Assembly: GCA_949281375.1 (NCBI GenBank)
Contig: CASDLT010000028.1
Location: forward strand, 1 to 64,000
Source: an uncultured Nitrosomonas sp.
Lineage (GTDB): Bacteria; Pseudomonadota; Gammaproteobacteria; Burkholderiales; Nitrosomonadaceae
DNA: 64,000 bases
Direction: 5' to 3'
Under the pieces are notes generated by a model that was not told the DNA's origin, ran no database searches, and was given only the letters and a program-made list of their open reading frames with translations. Of the stretch, positions 15,056-19,751 are shown in pieces (the stretch's first letter is position 1; each line of letters opens with the position of its first letter). A program made the position numbers and the translations under genes.

Positions 15056-16690
15056 ATGACGACACTTTGGCGCGATAAATATCTGTTATCTGATACCGAT
15101 CAACCTACGATGATGGAAGATTTTCGTCCGGCTGAAACCGATTATGCAGCACTTGATCTTAAAACATTCGAGGCGATAGAGACTGAAGCACTATTTCATG
15201 CCATTGATTTCTCGACTACGGAAATTGGACGTTTGAGCGTGTATCGATCGTTGGCGCGTCCTGAATGGGATGCGGAACGATTGCAGCAGAAACAGCATGC
15301 ATTACGTGAGATTGAATCTAGTCCACAGCTCCGTGAAGCGCTTATCGCCTATGTTAAGCAAATCGCGTCAGGAGAAAAATCACTAAAATATTTGCTGTAT
15401 GGAGAATTCACTGGCGGGCTGGCAACGGATGAACCCAGCAGCCGCACCGATAAGCTGGAATTTGGCGGGTATGGCTATCGCCAGTTTCAGGATGGCACCC
15501 AATTCGCCGTCGATTTGATTGAAAATGCCGGTCGCTTGCCTCAACCACAATCAGAATATCTCCGAAGTTTACTGGATGCCATCCGGGAATTTGGTCAATC
15601 GCGCATCTATGACCTCATGAAGGGACCCGTGTATTCGTCGGGTGGTAAATTCAAAACCCAGCAGGAAAAACCGCGACGGCATCTATATTCGCGTTTTCAT
15701 CCATCGCTGTTTAAGATCATGCCCACGCTGATATTTTTCGCGGCCGGTTATGGAATGCTGTTTTTCTTTGAAAATTTCATGCCGCAATTCAATGCCTCCT
15801 ACATCGGTTATGGCATCCTGGCGCTGACTGTGCCGGTATTTCCAATAATATTGCTGGCGATGGGTGTATCAGACCGTGATTCCATCATTTATCCATTGCG
15901 AAAGCAGTTCAGGGAAAGTCCTGAATTGGCAAAAGCCATGGAAGCGCTGGGACTGATCGATGAATTGTTGTCTTTTCATCACTATGGAGAATCGATACCC
16001 GGCGATAAAACATTGCCGGAGATTCTTGATGACAAGCAACATCGGCTGGTCATCCAACATGCAAAAAATCCTTTGTTGATCAAATATATTCCAGATTATG
16101 TGCCAAATGACATCGAACTTGATCAAACTGGGCGGGTATTGATCATTACCGGACCGAACAGCGGTGGTAAAACGGCTTATTGCAAAACTATCGTGCAAAT
16201 CCAATTGCTGGGGCAAATCGGCTGTTATATTCCTGCCAAACGTGGATTATTGACGCCGGCTGAACATATTTATTATCAAGTACCCGATCCGGGACAACTA
16301 AGCGCAGCGATGGGCCGTTTCGGTCACGAACTCCAGCGTACGCGCGAAATATTCTTTAATGCGACGCCCCGCAGTTTGGTGGTGCTGGACGAATTGTCCG
16401 AAGGCACGACGTTTGAAGAAAAAATGACCATTTCGGAATACATCCTCAAAGGATTTCATAAATTGGGTGCAAGCACCTTGCTTGTCACTCACAACCACGA
16501 ATTGTGTGATCGGTTGCAAAGCGATGGCATCGGTCGTTACTTGCAAGTCGAATTTCTGCCCGATGGGCCTTCGCATCGTCTGATCGCCGGCATCTCCACC
16601 GTGAGCCATGCCGACCGCGTTGCCAGCGCGATTGGGTTTAGTCAGAAAGATGTGGAAGCACATTTGGAAAAGCAAGGCGAATTATCGTGA
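15056..16690 (+). CDS. Membrane-associated MutS-like ATPase (MutS domain V)
   Basis: 544 residues. The C-terminal 200 residues form the MutS ABC-type ATPase: Walker A GPNSGGKT (residues 366-373), Walker B VVLDELSEGTTFEEK and an H-loop LLVTHNHEL. The N-terminal part lacks a mismatch-recognition domain. Two hydrophobic segments (around LIFFAAGYGMLFFF and GILALTVPVFPIILLAMGV, near residues 223-278) suggest membrane anchoring, unusual for MutS relatives. There is no Smr nuclease domain, so it is not MutS2. Such proteins are annotated as MutS-related with no known function. The start has only a weak GAGAT-like ribosome-binding site. It is divergent from the MacA-type operon. Confidence 0.85.
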   Translation: MTTLWRDKYLLSDTDQPTMMEDFRPAETDYAALDLKTFEAIETEALFHAIDFSTTEIGRLSVYRSLARPEWDAERLQQKQHALREIESSPQLREALIAYVKQIASGEKSLKYLLYGEFTGGLATDEPSSRTDKLEFGGYGYRQFQDGTQFAVDLIENAGRLPQPQSEYLRSLLDAIREFGQSRIYDLMKGPVYSSGGKFKTQQEKPRRHLYSRFHPSLFKIMPTLIFFAAGYGMLFFFENFMPQFNASYIGYGILALTVPVFPIILLAMGVSDRDSIIYPLRKQFRESPELAKAMEALGLIDELLSFHHYGESIPGDKTLPEILDDKQHRLVIQHAKNPLLIKYIPDYVPNDIELDQTGRVLIITGPNSGGKTAYCKTIVQIQLLGQIGCYIPAKRGLLTPAEHIYYQVPDPGQLSAAMGRFGHELQRTREIFFNATPRSLVVLDELSEGTTFEEKMTISEYILKGFHKLGASTLLVTHNHELCDRLQSDGIGRYLQVEFLPDGPSHRLIAGISTVSHADRVASAIGFSQKDVEAHLEKQGELS

Positions 16691-17578: not shown

Positions 17579-18046
17579 ATGAATACATTTATTTATGACT
17601 GGAGAGTACCTATCAATCAAGTACTCAAACTATCTTCCTTGCTATTGACACTTACTGTGTTAACAGCTTGCGCACAAATGAGTTCAACTGTGGCTAAACC
17701 CACTGGAATCTCAAGTGACAACCATGACGCTCTAGTTAAATATTACGAAGGCGTTGCCAAAGATGCAAAATTAAGACTGCAAGCGAATAAAAAAGTACTT
17801 GAGGAGTATGAAGCACGTCCTTATTACTTTGGCAGGCAAGGTTTGGATGCTAAGTCGCATGCTTTAGCAAATGTTCGAGCATATGAGAAAACGATTCAGG
17901 AAAGCTTGGCATTTGCTGATCTCCATAGAAAAATTGCGATGGAGCAAAAACGTAATCTAGCAAATAAACTAGGTTCCACCCAAGATCGTGACTTTACATC
18001 AAAGATCACAGAATACTCAGAGTATTCTGTTAATAAAGGTCTCTGA
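17579..18046 (+). CDS. Putative lipoprotein of unknown function
   Basis: 155 residues. A hydrophobic segment LLLTLTVLTAC ends in a lipobox (LTAC), predicting signal-peptidase II processing and lipid attachment at the cysteine near residue 31. The mature part is helical and charged (KLRLQANKKVLEEYEARP, HRKIAMEQKRNLANK), suggesting a coiled coil or helical bundle in the periplasm. GGAGG (17566-17570) is 8 bases before the ATG. The end of the gene carries a perfect 10-bp palindrome with a 1-base centre (18009-18029), and a terminator-like hairpin follows. No family recognised. Confidence 0.75.
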   Translation: MNTFIYDWRVPINQVLKLSSLLLTLTVLTACAQMSSTVAKPTGISSDNHDALVKYYEGVAKDAKLRLQANKKVLEEYEARPYYFGRQGLDAKSHALANVRAYEKTIQESLAFADLHRKIAMEQKRNLANKLGSTQDRDFTSKITEYSEYSVNKGL

Positions 18047-18382: not shown

Positions 18383-19636
18383 CTATGGAATACGGGGAAG
18401 TACTTTTATCCATTCGCCTGAGCATTGTTTAACCTGAGGATAGTAGCCTTCAGGATTGCGACAGTAATACCAATAGGTATTTCTTTGCACCGGGGCTGGG
18501 CGTGGCGCTGCATTTTGTTGAATGTACGTCGGAGTCACAGGCGCCAGCAGCGTGGGTGAAGACACTATTGGAGCACTGACAACGCCAACAGGGTATCCGC
18601 CGCCGTAAACATAATTGACTCCAAAACGACGATAAGGACCAAAGGTGTAATTATTATAGAAGCCGACGCCACCCCAACCCGGACCCCAACTCCATCCGGT
18701 ATTCCAACCCCAGCCGGTGCTAAAGCCCCAACCTGGGCCCCAACCCCAGCCCCAACTTGGACCGAAACCCCAGCCTAATCCCAATCCGACACCCAGTCCC
18801 AAACCAAATCCATCCAGATGGTGATGATGGCCATGATGATGGTGTCCGTCATGAATGAAATTGCCAGTGTGTGGATTCGTTTGCACATTGTTTTCAATAT
18901 TCACATTCTGGTTCGATGCGCCATCTTGAACCGCACCCTCGGATTGGGTAGCGGGTTCTGTTCCAACTTTTGCGTCATTTGCAGTGGTAGATTGATCGGT
19001 AGCGCCAGTACTTTCCTTCGTAAATTCGCCGTGTTGATCCGCAGCATTATCTGGAGTGGCTGGATTAATATCAGCCGATGTTTCATTGGTGGCCGCATCA
19101 CCTGTTTGATGTGCTTCTGAGTTTATTTCCTTGTGTTGTGCAGACTCAGATCCAGGATCAAACGCTTGGCCGGTCTGTACATCGCTGGGTTGATTGGCAT
19201 CACTGGATAAATTGGCATCATCCGAAAAATCAACCGGTTCCGATTGGTCAGCGATGCCGCCATCAATGGCGTCAGTTTGATTGAAATTACCTTGATGAAG
19301 ATCTCCTTGATCGAAACCTCCGCCGATATCATTGTTTGATTCTAATTGATCAGGTGCGTCATAGCTGCCATCAAAACCACTGCCTTCATAGCCATCGAAG
19401 TTCCCGCTATCGAAATTTCCACCGTCGTAGCTACCTCCATCAAATCCACCATCATAACCTCCGCCGTCAAAACCCCCACCGTCGAAGCCGCCACCATCGA
19501 AACTCCCACCATCGAAGCCGCCACCATCAAAACCCCCGCCGTCTCCTCCGCCATCGCCCCCCTCAGCGCTGATTGGATTGGTTGCAAATAGTCCACACAT
19601 TGCTATCGCCATGTATGTTAACTGAAATTTGTTCAT
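18383..19636 (-). CDS. Secreted FDGGG-repeat, His-rich and Gly/Trp-rich protein
   Basis: 417 residues with a signal peptide (AMCGLFATNPISA). Four zones follow. Residues 25-95 are imperfect FDGGG/FDGGS/YDGG pentapeptide repeats, very acidic and glycine-rich. Residues 95-265 are a low-complexity D/Q/N/T-rich linker. A HDGHHHHGHHHH cluster comes next and could bind metal. Then a GLGLGVGLGLGWGFG and WGWGPGWG segment leads to a C-terminal module with YWYYCRNPEGYYPQVKQC, a short cysteine-pair motif I recall from other proteobacterial secreted proteins. It is probably a surface, matrix or envelope-associated protein. An inverted repeat lies about 85 bp upstream of the start. It is transcribed away from sucC. 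The function is unknown. Confidence 0.8.
   Translation of the reverse strand: MNKFQLTYMAIAMCGLFATNPISAEGGDGGGDGGGFDGGGFDGGSFDGGGFDGGGFDGGGYDGGFDGGSYDGGNFDSGNFDGYEGSGFDGSYDAPDQLESNNDIGGGFDQGDLHQGNFNQTDAIDGGIADQSEPVDFSDDANLSSDANQPSDVQTGQAFDPGSESAQHKEINSEAHQTGDAATNETSADINPATPDNAADQHGEFTKESTGATDQSTTANDAKVGTEPATQSEGAVQDGASNQNVNIENNVQTNPHTGNFIHDGHHHHGHHHHLDGFGLGLGVGLGLGWGFGPSWGWGWGPGWGFSTGWGWNTGWSWGPGWGGVGFYNNYTFGPYRRFGVNYVYGGGYPVGVVSAPIVSSPTLLAPVTPTYIQQNAAPRPAPVQRNTYWYYCRNPEGYYPQVKQCSGEWIKVLPRIP
19357..19564 (-). repeat. Degenerate 15-bp tandem repeats encoding FDGGG
   Basis: The coding sequence for residues about 25-93 of the Gly-rich protein is made of imperfect 15-bp units (plus-strand form like AAACCCCCACCGTCG). 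Unit-to-unit variation is mostly at third codon positions and in F/Y/S/N swaps. This suggests old slippage-driven expansion followed by selection on the protein. Confidence 0.7.
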
Positions 19637-19718
19637 CGTATCTCCGGCTCAATCTATGTCACAGTATGGCTTATGATATCGGCAAAATTCTGAACGAATA
19701 CTGAATAAAGCAAATGGA

Positions 19719-19751
19719 TATGGGTCATAAAATTTCCTTATATGACCCATA
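19719..19751. promoter_or_regulatory. 11-bp inverted repeat between the Gly-rich gene and sucC
   Basis: TATGGGTCATA (19719-19729) and TATGACCCATA (19741-19751) are perfect inverted copies with an 11-base spacer. The element lies 83 bp upstream of the Gly-rich gene start and about 250 bp upstream of sucC. It may be an operator or an mRNA leader hairpin. No terminator role is expected between divergent genes. The rest of the 363-bp intergenic region (19637-19999) shows no gene. Confidence 0.5.

Follow-up and report, generated by a model that had tools for sequence, protein, structure and literature searches.

A histidine-rich, predicted secreted protein of Nitrosomonas, its two-gene cassette relatives and a promoter shared with metal-efflux genes

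Introduction

What is the role of a predicted secreted protein that is built of short repeats, a run of histidines and a glycine-rich chain, and that matches no named family? The question is raised by one frame in a window of 64,000 nucleotides (the whole stretch of DNA analysed) from an uncultured Nitrosomonas sp. Copper and iron enzymes are essential to ammonia oxidisers, which are also exposed to metals. A sequence-only reading had described FDGGG repeats, a His cluster, a WGWGPGWG segment and a two-cysteine end, and all of these features are present in the frame at 18383-19636.

The gene and its conservation

The frame lies on the minus strand, a detail absent from the earlier reading, with an ATG at 19636 and a stop codon at 18383-18385; its features are collected in Table 1. 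The genome set comprised 61 genomes (the own genome and 60 relatives), 37 of the genus Nitrosomonas and 24 others of the order. The window protein had a match at E <= 0.001 in 42 of the 61, and long matches were found in 20 Nitrosomonas genomes besides the own. The copies in G021 and G027 are partial (contig end, masked bases), and in G026 a contig end leaves just the first 29 residues. Nineteen orthologs can be aligned over their full length; conserved across them are the signal segment (including an invariant A24), the Gly/aromatic region and the C-terminal module (19/19), but not the middle. Because full-length relatives occur in many Nitrosomonas genomes, 19 of them align over the whole length, and six ortholog pairs have whole-gene dN/dS values of 0.10-0.18, the frame is more than chance: judged by its sequence, it is a real, conserved gene. 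Signal peptide and frame, whose loss in relatives had been named as the sign of a spurious gene, are both retained in the orthologs.

Known families give little guidance. The window protein matched no Pfam family up to E 1 and its 19 orthologs none up to E 0.01; NCBIfam returned nothing above cut-off (best E 0.13), and Rfam had no match around the gene. A functional tie to the divergent sucC was considered and rejected, as the two genes adjoin in only 5 of 21 regions (own, G007, G023, G029 and G032); elsewhere the window-type gene lies near other genes or contig ends.

Table 1. Features of the window gene and its promoter (positions in the window)
Feature	Position	Strand	Basis
CDS, secreted protein, 417 aa	18383..19636	-	frame and orthologs
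Signal-peptide-like segment, residues 1-24	19565..19636	-	sequence; cleavage after PISA, by eye
FDGGG / [FY]DGG repeat region, residues 26-92	19361..19561	-	sequence, repeat search
Acidic Asn/Gln/Ser/Thr-rich linker, poorly conserved, residues 93-258	18863..19360	-	ortholog alignment
His cluster HDGHHHHGHHHH, residues 262-273	18818..18853	-	sequence; His content in 19 orthologs
Gly/aromatic (Trp, Phe, Tyr) region, residues 277-370	18527..18808	-	sequence, alignment
C-terminal two-Cys module core, residues 387-412	18401..18478	-	alignment, profile, structure model
Direct repeat ATTCAGTATTCGTTCAG, predicted response-regulator site	19690..19706	-	shared upstream element
-10-like TATCAT, 11 nt after second pentamer	19673..19678	-	shared spacing

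Repeats, histidines and the C-terminal end

The repeat region contains a tandem array at 19419-19543 (period 15, 6.1 copies, score 93). FDGGG occurs 4 times in the window protein and 0-8 times across the 19 orthologs, [FY]DGG 0-13 times across the same set, and some species have [FY]GGD as their unit. In the window gene the units use mixed codons that differ from unit to unit; recent slippage is therefore not evident in it. Of the earlier proposal that repeat number varies by slippage, the variation is seen, in a comparison between species rather than strains; the mechanism is unsupported.

The His cluster includes HHHHGHHHH (residues 265-273). In 18 of the 19 orthologs the richest 20-residue stretch holds 7-11 His, and in the remaining one (L009) only 3. 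WGWGPGWG sits inside the Gly/Trp/Tyr region.

Near its end the protein reads YWYYCRNPEGYYP...C, and the short two-cysteine end as a whole reads YWYYCRNPEGYYPQVKQCSGEWIKV. A structure model beginning at residue 328 (90 aa) has pLDDT < 50 over its first 39 residues and about 80-90 over its last 30, which form three short strands; this model, confident over those last 30 residues only, had no fold match in the PDB. Antibody chains appeared as PDB sequence matches of the module profile and were taken as chance.

A module protein and a glycine-zipper lipoprotein form a cassette

The C-terminal end follows the pattern W..C.....YYP....C...W. Three further genes of the own genome carry this module, and it is widespread in Nitrosomonas. 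The suggestion that it be sought in other secreted proteins proved well founded: it recurs there, without a family name in Pfam or NCBIfam, and no description of it was found in the literature searched.

Many module genes are followed directly by the gene of a glycine-zipper lipoprotein, which matches Pfam Gly-zipper_YMGG (30.9 bits) and Gly-zipper_OmpA (30.2 bits), both above cut-off. Profiles of the module (46 positions) and of the lipoprotein (179 positions) were run over the 61 genomes. All rows of the module search were counted, giving 97 modules; the 73 lipoprotein genes comprise all rows with E of 4.3e-37 or better and a single piece of a broken gene in G016. Two other pieces of that gene were dropped, as were rows with E of 1.9e-12 or higher. 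A lipoprotein gene is the next gene downstream on the same strand for 64 of the 97 modules, at a gap of 18-89 nt (median 25), and 64 of the 73 lipoprotein genes are placed behind a module.

The pairing extends well beyond the genus. In a class-wide sample of 276 genomes, the module was found in 14 and the lipoprotein in 13, all of them among those 14; outside the own genome, 12/12 lipoprotein genes of this sample lie 17-118 nt behind a module, as read from two tables. Loci of Desulfuromonadaceae and Geomonas have the same order. In records of Caballeronia grimmiae and Rahnella aceris, the deposited annotation places a glycine zipper family protein behind a hypothetical protein, and a Paraburkholderia dioscoreae record shows two successive hypothetical proteins in cassette order; the cassette gives such annotations a testable context. 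Of 72,556 plasmid records, 15 had a match to the lipoprotein and 18 to a module protein; in 50,697 phage records the lipoprotein had no match. Two single loci may be added. The module gene at L031:1501-1974, from another family of the order (G060), has an in-frame TAG in the matched stretch, and on the Rahnella aceris plasmid pRAHAQ01 (L291) the pair stands beside mntR and a metal ABC transporter, which may be chance.

By its sequence context, the module marks an undescribed two-gene cassette: a module protein, then a glycine-zipper lipoprotein. The window gene itself is an orphan, with no such lipoprotein downstream. Window-type genes are paired in 3 of 21 cases (G009, G011, G017) and unpaired in 18, whereas other module genes are paired in 61 of 76; at L065 (N. 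communis) the lipoprotein lies directly downstream of the ortholog of the window gene. The Caballeronia, Rahnella and Paraburkholderia pairs share the order of module protein and lipoprotein, but their module proteins, at about 100-115 codons, have no room for repeat and linker. By these comparisons the window-type gene is a derived cassette member, long and in most genomes without the partner gene beside it. In the simplest history, a cassette gene would have gained the repeat, linker and His insert, and would then have lost its partner and moved.

The promoter of the window gene

The 260 nt before each of 19 window-type genes have one element in common. Eighteen of these upstreams hold an exact TTCAG-N6-TTCAG, and the nineteenth (L042) deviates from it at one base. 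No gapped word of this kind is commoner in the set, and mononucleotide shuffles give TTCAG-N6-TTCAG at about 1e-4 per sequence. The distance from the second pentamer to TAnnnT is exactly 11 nt in 19/19. Related genomes are not independent, but descent alone is a weak explanation of the shared element, because the remaining upstream sequence and the neighbouring genes vary between lineages. No description of a TTCAG-N6-TTCAG promoter was found in the literature searched. A near-perfect palindrome at 19719-19751 (TATGGGTCATA...TATGACCCATA) was rejected as an operator, occurring at one place in 1 of 37 genomes and being absent from the ortholog upstreams.

An inferred regulon sharing the promoter

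In the own genome, ATTCAG-N6-TTCAG occurs at 11 places, against none in a backward control; several of these lie inside unrelated genes and were taken as chance. Across the genus this short word is less clean than the full promoter: its backward control is often nonzero, and other genomes of the order carry it as well. The full promoter, TTCAG-N6-TTCAG-N11-TAnnnT, occurs at four places in the own genome: before the window gene, before a module/lipoprotein cassette (C24), before a three-gene CzcCBA-type metal-efflux operon (C10), and before an operon of His-rich secreted, PepSY, PhoP-like and PhoQ-like proteins (C48). The permease of the efflux operon scores 1037.7 bits on TIGR00914 (CusA/CzcA heavy-metal RND; cut-off 701.45); a reading of its membrane segment gave no metal assignment. 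A looser pattern adds three own-genome sites (C32, C47, C53), with 2 in the control. In the genus the full promoter was found at 95 places in 36 of 37 genomes (summed over rows) against 1 in the backward control, and among the 24 genomes from elsewhere in the order at 1 against 0.

The cassette genes show the same element. Upstreams of 63 other module genes were compared (66 fetched, 3 unparsed; for 3 of the 63 only 2 nt were read). The exact TTCAG-N6-TTCAG precedes 20 of them, all among the 53 paired genes and none among the 10 orphans. Over the same genes, 59 anagram pentamers gave a mean of 0.07 and a maximum of 2, and other spacers gave 0-4. TAnnnT follows at 11 nt in 16 of the 20; the count at 10 nt is 4.

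Of the full-promoter sites, 74 distinct ones lay in fetched sequence and were open to checking, a sample biased to loci fetched for other reasons; a script named the target class of 61, and 8 of the other 13 were assigned by hand. Twenty sites were fetched because their targets were unknown. Seven of these stand before a CzcC-type gene, with or without one leader gene in between; 2 lie ahead of a His-rich secreted protein, 3 ahead of a small Tyr/Gly/His-rich lipoprotein and 2 ahead of a lipoprotein with a GCKTVP start; 5 are unclear, and the L271 site precedes the CzcC leader gene alone. By these target classes, efflux and His-rich envelope proteins recur behind the promoter, and we strongly infer that the window gene belongs to a regulon with both. 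The earlier suggestion of a secreted, possibly metal-related protein thereby gains independent, indirect support, from an unusually specific promoter common to a CusA/CzcA-family efflux operon and His-rich secreted proteins and from at least 7 His per 20 residues in 18 of 19 orthologs. Its further idea of iron or copper capture does not fare as well, since the findings indicate a regulon of stress and efflux rather than one of uptake.

The small Tyr/Gly/His-rich lipoproteins (GCVA..YYG start) stand behind the TTCAG repeat at L113:4314-4688, L239, L261, L284, L287 and L289; the family with the GCKTVP start is found repeatedly behind the full promoter (L228, L255, L280, L286).

The candidate regulator and described systems

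The C48 operon holds a PepSY protein, an OmpR-family regulator (L111:6019-6693) and a histidine kinase together. It opens with a very His-rich small secreted protein (L111:7145-7474), which may sense or buffer metal for the kinase. Against the NCBIfam PhoP equivalog the regulator scores 225.8 of 336 bits, and against the PhoQ equivalog the kinase scores 200.4 of 497; both fall below cut-off, and by these scores the two are only relatives of PhoP and PhoQ. A PhoP-like regulator at E <= 1e-60 is present in 36 of 37 genus genomes (as fragments in G003 and G013) and in 3 of 24 others. The genus operons were read from 30 loci (L118-L147) and from longer stretches for G009, G010, G011, G017 and G034, giving 33 in all. 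Each is preceded by the repeat at no fewer than 9 of 10 bases (33/33); the short loci showed it in 28 of 30, and for L146 (G017) and L147 (G011) it lies in L219 and L218. By a simple script, a His-rich first gene occurs in 26 of 30 regulator operons. In N. europaea a PepSY protein (Q82VY9) is reported as highly expressed in AOB proteomics (PMC5960693).

Three described systems offer parallels. DbfQRS of Vibrio cholerae responds to damage of the outer membrane and switches on its own promoter, and DbfRS controls biofilm (PMC12714742). As there, PepSY, response regulator and histidine kinase share one operon in Nitrosomonas, and the site before this operon suggests the autoregulation reported for dbfQRS (PMC12714742); the Nitrosomonas operon differs in opening with a His-rich secreted protein and in a predicted regulon with CzcCBA and module proteins. 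BqsR of Pseudomonas aeruginosa binds TTAAG-N6-TTAAG, with the downstream pentamer over the -35, and responds to Fe(II) (PMC4682146); BqsRS has PepSY neighbours, PA2658/PA2659 (PMC12714742). Both systems thus have two pentamers 6 bp apart near the promoter core and a PepSY association, but the pentamer is TTAAG there and TTCAG in Nitrosomonas, and the Fe(II) response is that of BqsRS (PMC4682146). As the layout of the repeat is that of BqsR with one base changed per pentamer, the C48 regulator is likely to bind the TTCAG repeat. In enterics, phoPQ and slyB are core PhoP targets (PMC2650801), and SlyB protects the outer membrane (PMC13067283). In Nitrosomonas, too, a PhoP-like regulator is predicted to activate both the operon that encodes it and the gene of a glycine-zipper lipoprotein; this lipoprotein has no significant sequence match to SlyB and comes with a secreted module protein.

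Proposed function and alternative explanations

Most likely, the window protein is an envelope protein of Nitrosomonas that is induced by a two-component system of the DbfQRS/BqsRS kind and that buffers metal cations or protects the outer membrane. Cation or outer-membrane stress would lead the PhoQ-like kinase to activate the PhoP-like regulator, which in turn would activate the window gene, its own operon, the CzcCBA-type efflux system and other His/Gly/Tyr-rich secreted proteins and lipoproteins. The window gene, which derives from the undescribed cassette of short module protein and downstream glycine-zipper lipoprotein, would encode a short folded two-Cys module carried on a long, probably disordered chain of Gly/Asp, His and Gly/aromatic stretches. 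Under metal or outer-membrane stress the protein would build up on the cell surface or within the periplasm. Its histidines and the Asp-rich repeats may bind cations there, and the Gly/aromatic region and two-Cys module may hold it to the envelope. Taken in full, as an exported, cassette-derived envelope protein that is activated by the PhoP-like regulator under such stress and binds cations, this explanation has a slightly better than even chance of being right. The ortholog with 3 His and the 18 of 21 window-type genes that have no adjoining lipoprotein count against it, as do the below-cut-off PhoP and PhoQ scores and the three extra sites of the looser pattern with 2 in its control. Its metal side is weakened by regulators of the DbfQRS type, for which the trigger can be membrane damage instead of a metal (PMC12714742).

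Protection of the outer membrane is the main rival, because SlyB is likewise PhoP-driven and carries a glycine zipper. Module protein and lipoprotein would then stabilise a damaged membrane as SlyB does, the histidines would be incidental, and the signal would be membrane damage. In favour of this, the partner is a glycine-zipper protein by two Pfam families (YMGG and OmpA-type) above cut-off, SlyB is the second weak PDB match of the lipoprotein profile (E 0.053), the likely regulator is a PhoP-like/PhoQ-like pair, slyB and phoPQ are themselves core PhoP targets (PMC2650801), SlyB guards the outer membrane (PMC13067283), and DbfQRS senses damage to it (PMC12714742). Yet the SlyB match is not significant; the lipoprotein model, of low confidence (mean pLDDT 60), has no significant fold match in the PDB and reaches SlyB in Foldseek only at E 2.9; most window-type genes have no adjoining lipoprotein; and CzcCBA in the regulon points to metals. 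On balance this reading is somewhat unlikely. A still broader proposal is an undescribed envelope system of beta- and gammaproteobacteria and of Desulfuromonas/Geobacter relatives, in which a secreted two-Cys-module protein and its own glycine-zipper lipoprotein act together as a counterpart of PhoP-controlled SlyB. In Nitrosomonas one copy would have become long, repeat-bearing, His-rich and polymer-like, buffering metal cations at the envelope under His-rich/PepSY/PhoP-like/PhoQ-like control. This proposal is offered tentatively, as a possibility well short of an even chance.

The remaining alternatives concern the regulator and the nature of the chain. The shared promoter word could belong to another regulator, the two-component operon being merely one more target; a second OmpR-type regulator could in principle recognise the same repeat. 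But the site-bearing operon itself encodes an OmpR-family regulator, the repeat precedes every one of the genus operons read, and BqsR, which is PepSY-associated (PMC12714742), binds the same layout (PMC4682146), so we judge this unlikely. The window protein might instead be an extracellular matrix or adhesive protein, its low-complexity repeats making it a self-assembling surface or biofilm component. The Gly/Asp/aromatic chain and its fast-changing repeats suit such a role, as does the control of biofilm by the related DbfRS (PMC12714742); against it, 20 regions inspected by eye in translation showed no recurring anchoring, secretion-system or polysaccharide neighbours, and the regulon consists of efflux and His-rich envelope proteins, and we hold a matrix role to be improbable. 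The earlier idea of a matrix protein relevant to aggregate growth is thus unsupported. For ammonia oxidisers, a small and sharply defined predicted regulon, with four full-promoter sites in the own genome, that ties a metal-efflux pump to secreted proteins offers a direct experimental handle on metal or membrane stress in the envelope.

Neighbouring genes in the window

On the plus strand, the frame at 15056-16690 is MutS-like: Pfam MutS domain V matched, and domain III appeared only below cut-off. At 17579-18046, also on the plus strand, the window gene is neighboured by a 155-aa lipoprotein-like gene without a Pfam match. By eye, the product of L074:3246-3671 in Nitrosospira sp. NpAV looks like this protein; a module gene is found there at a distance of about 2 kb.
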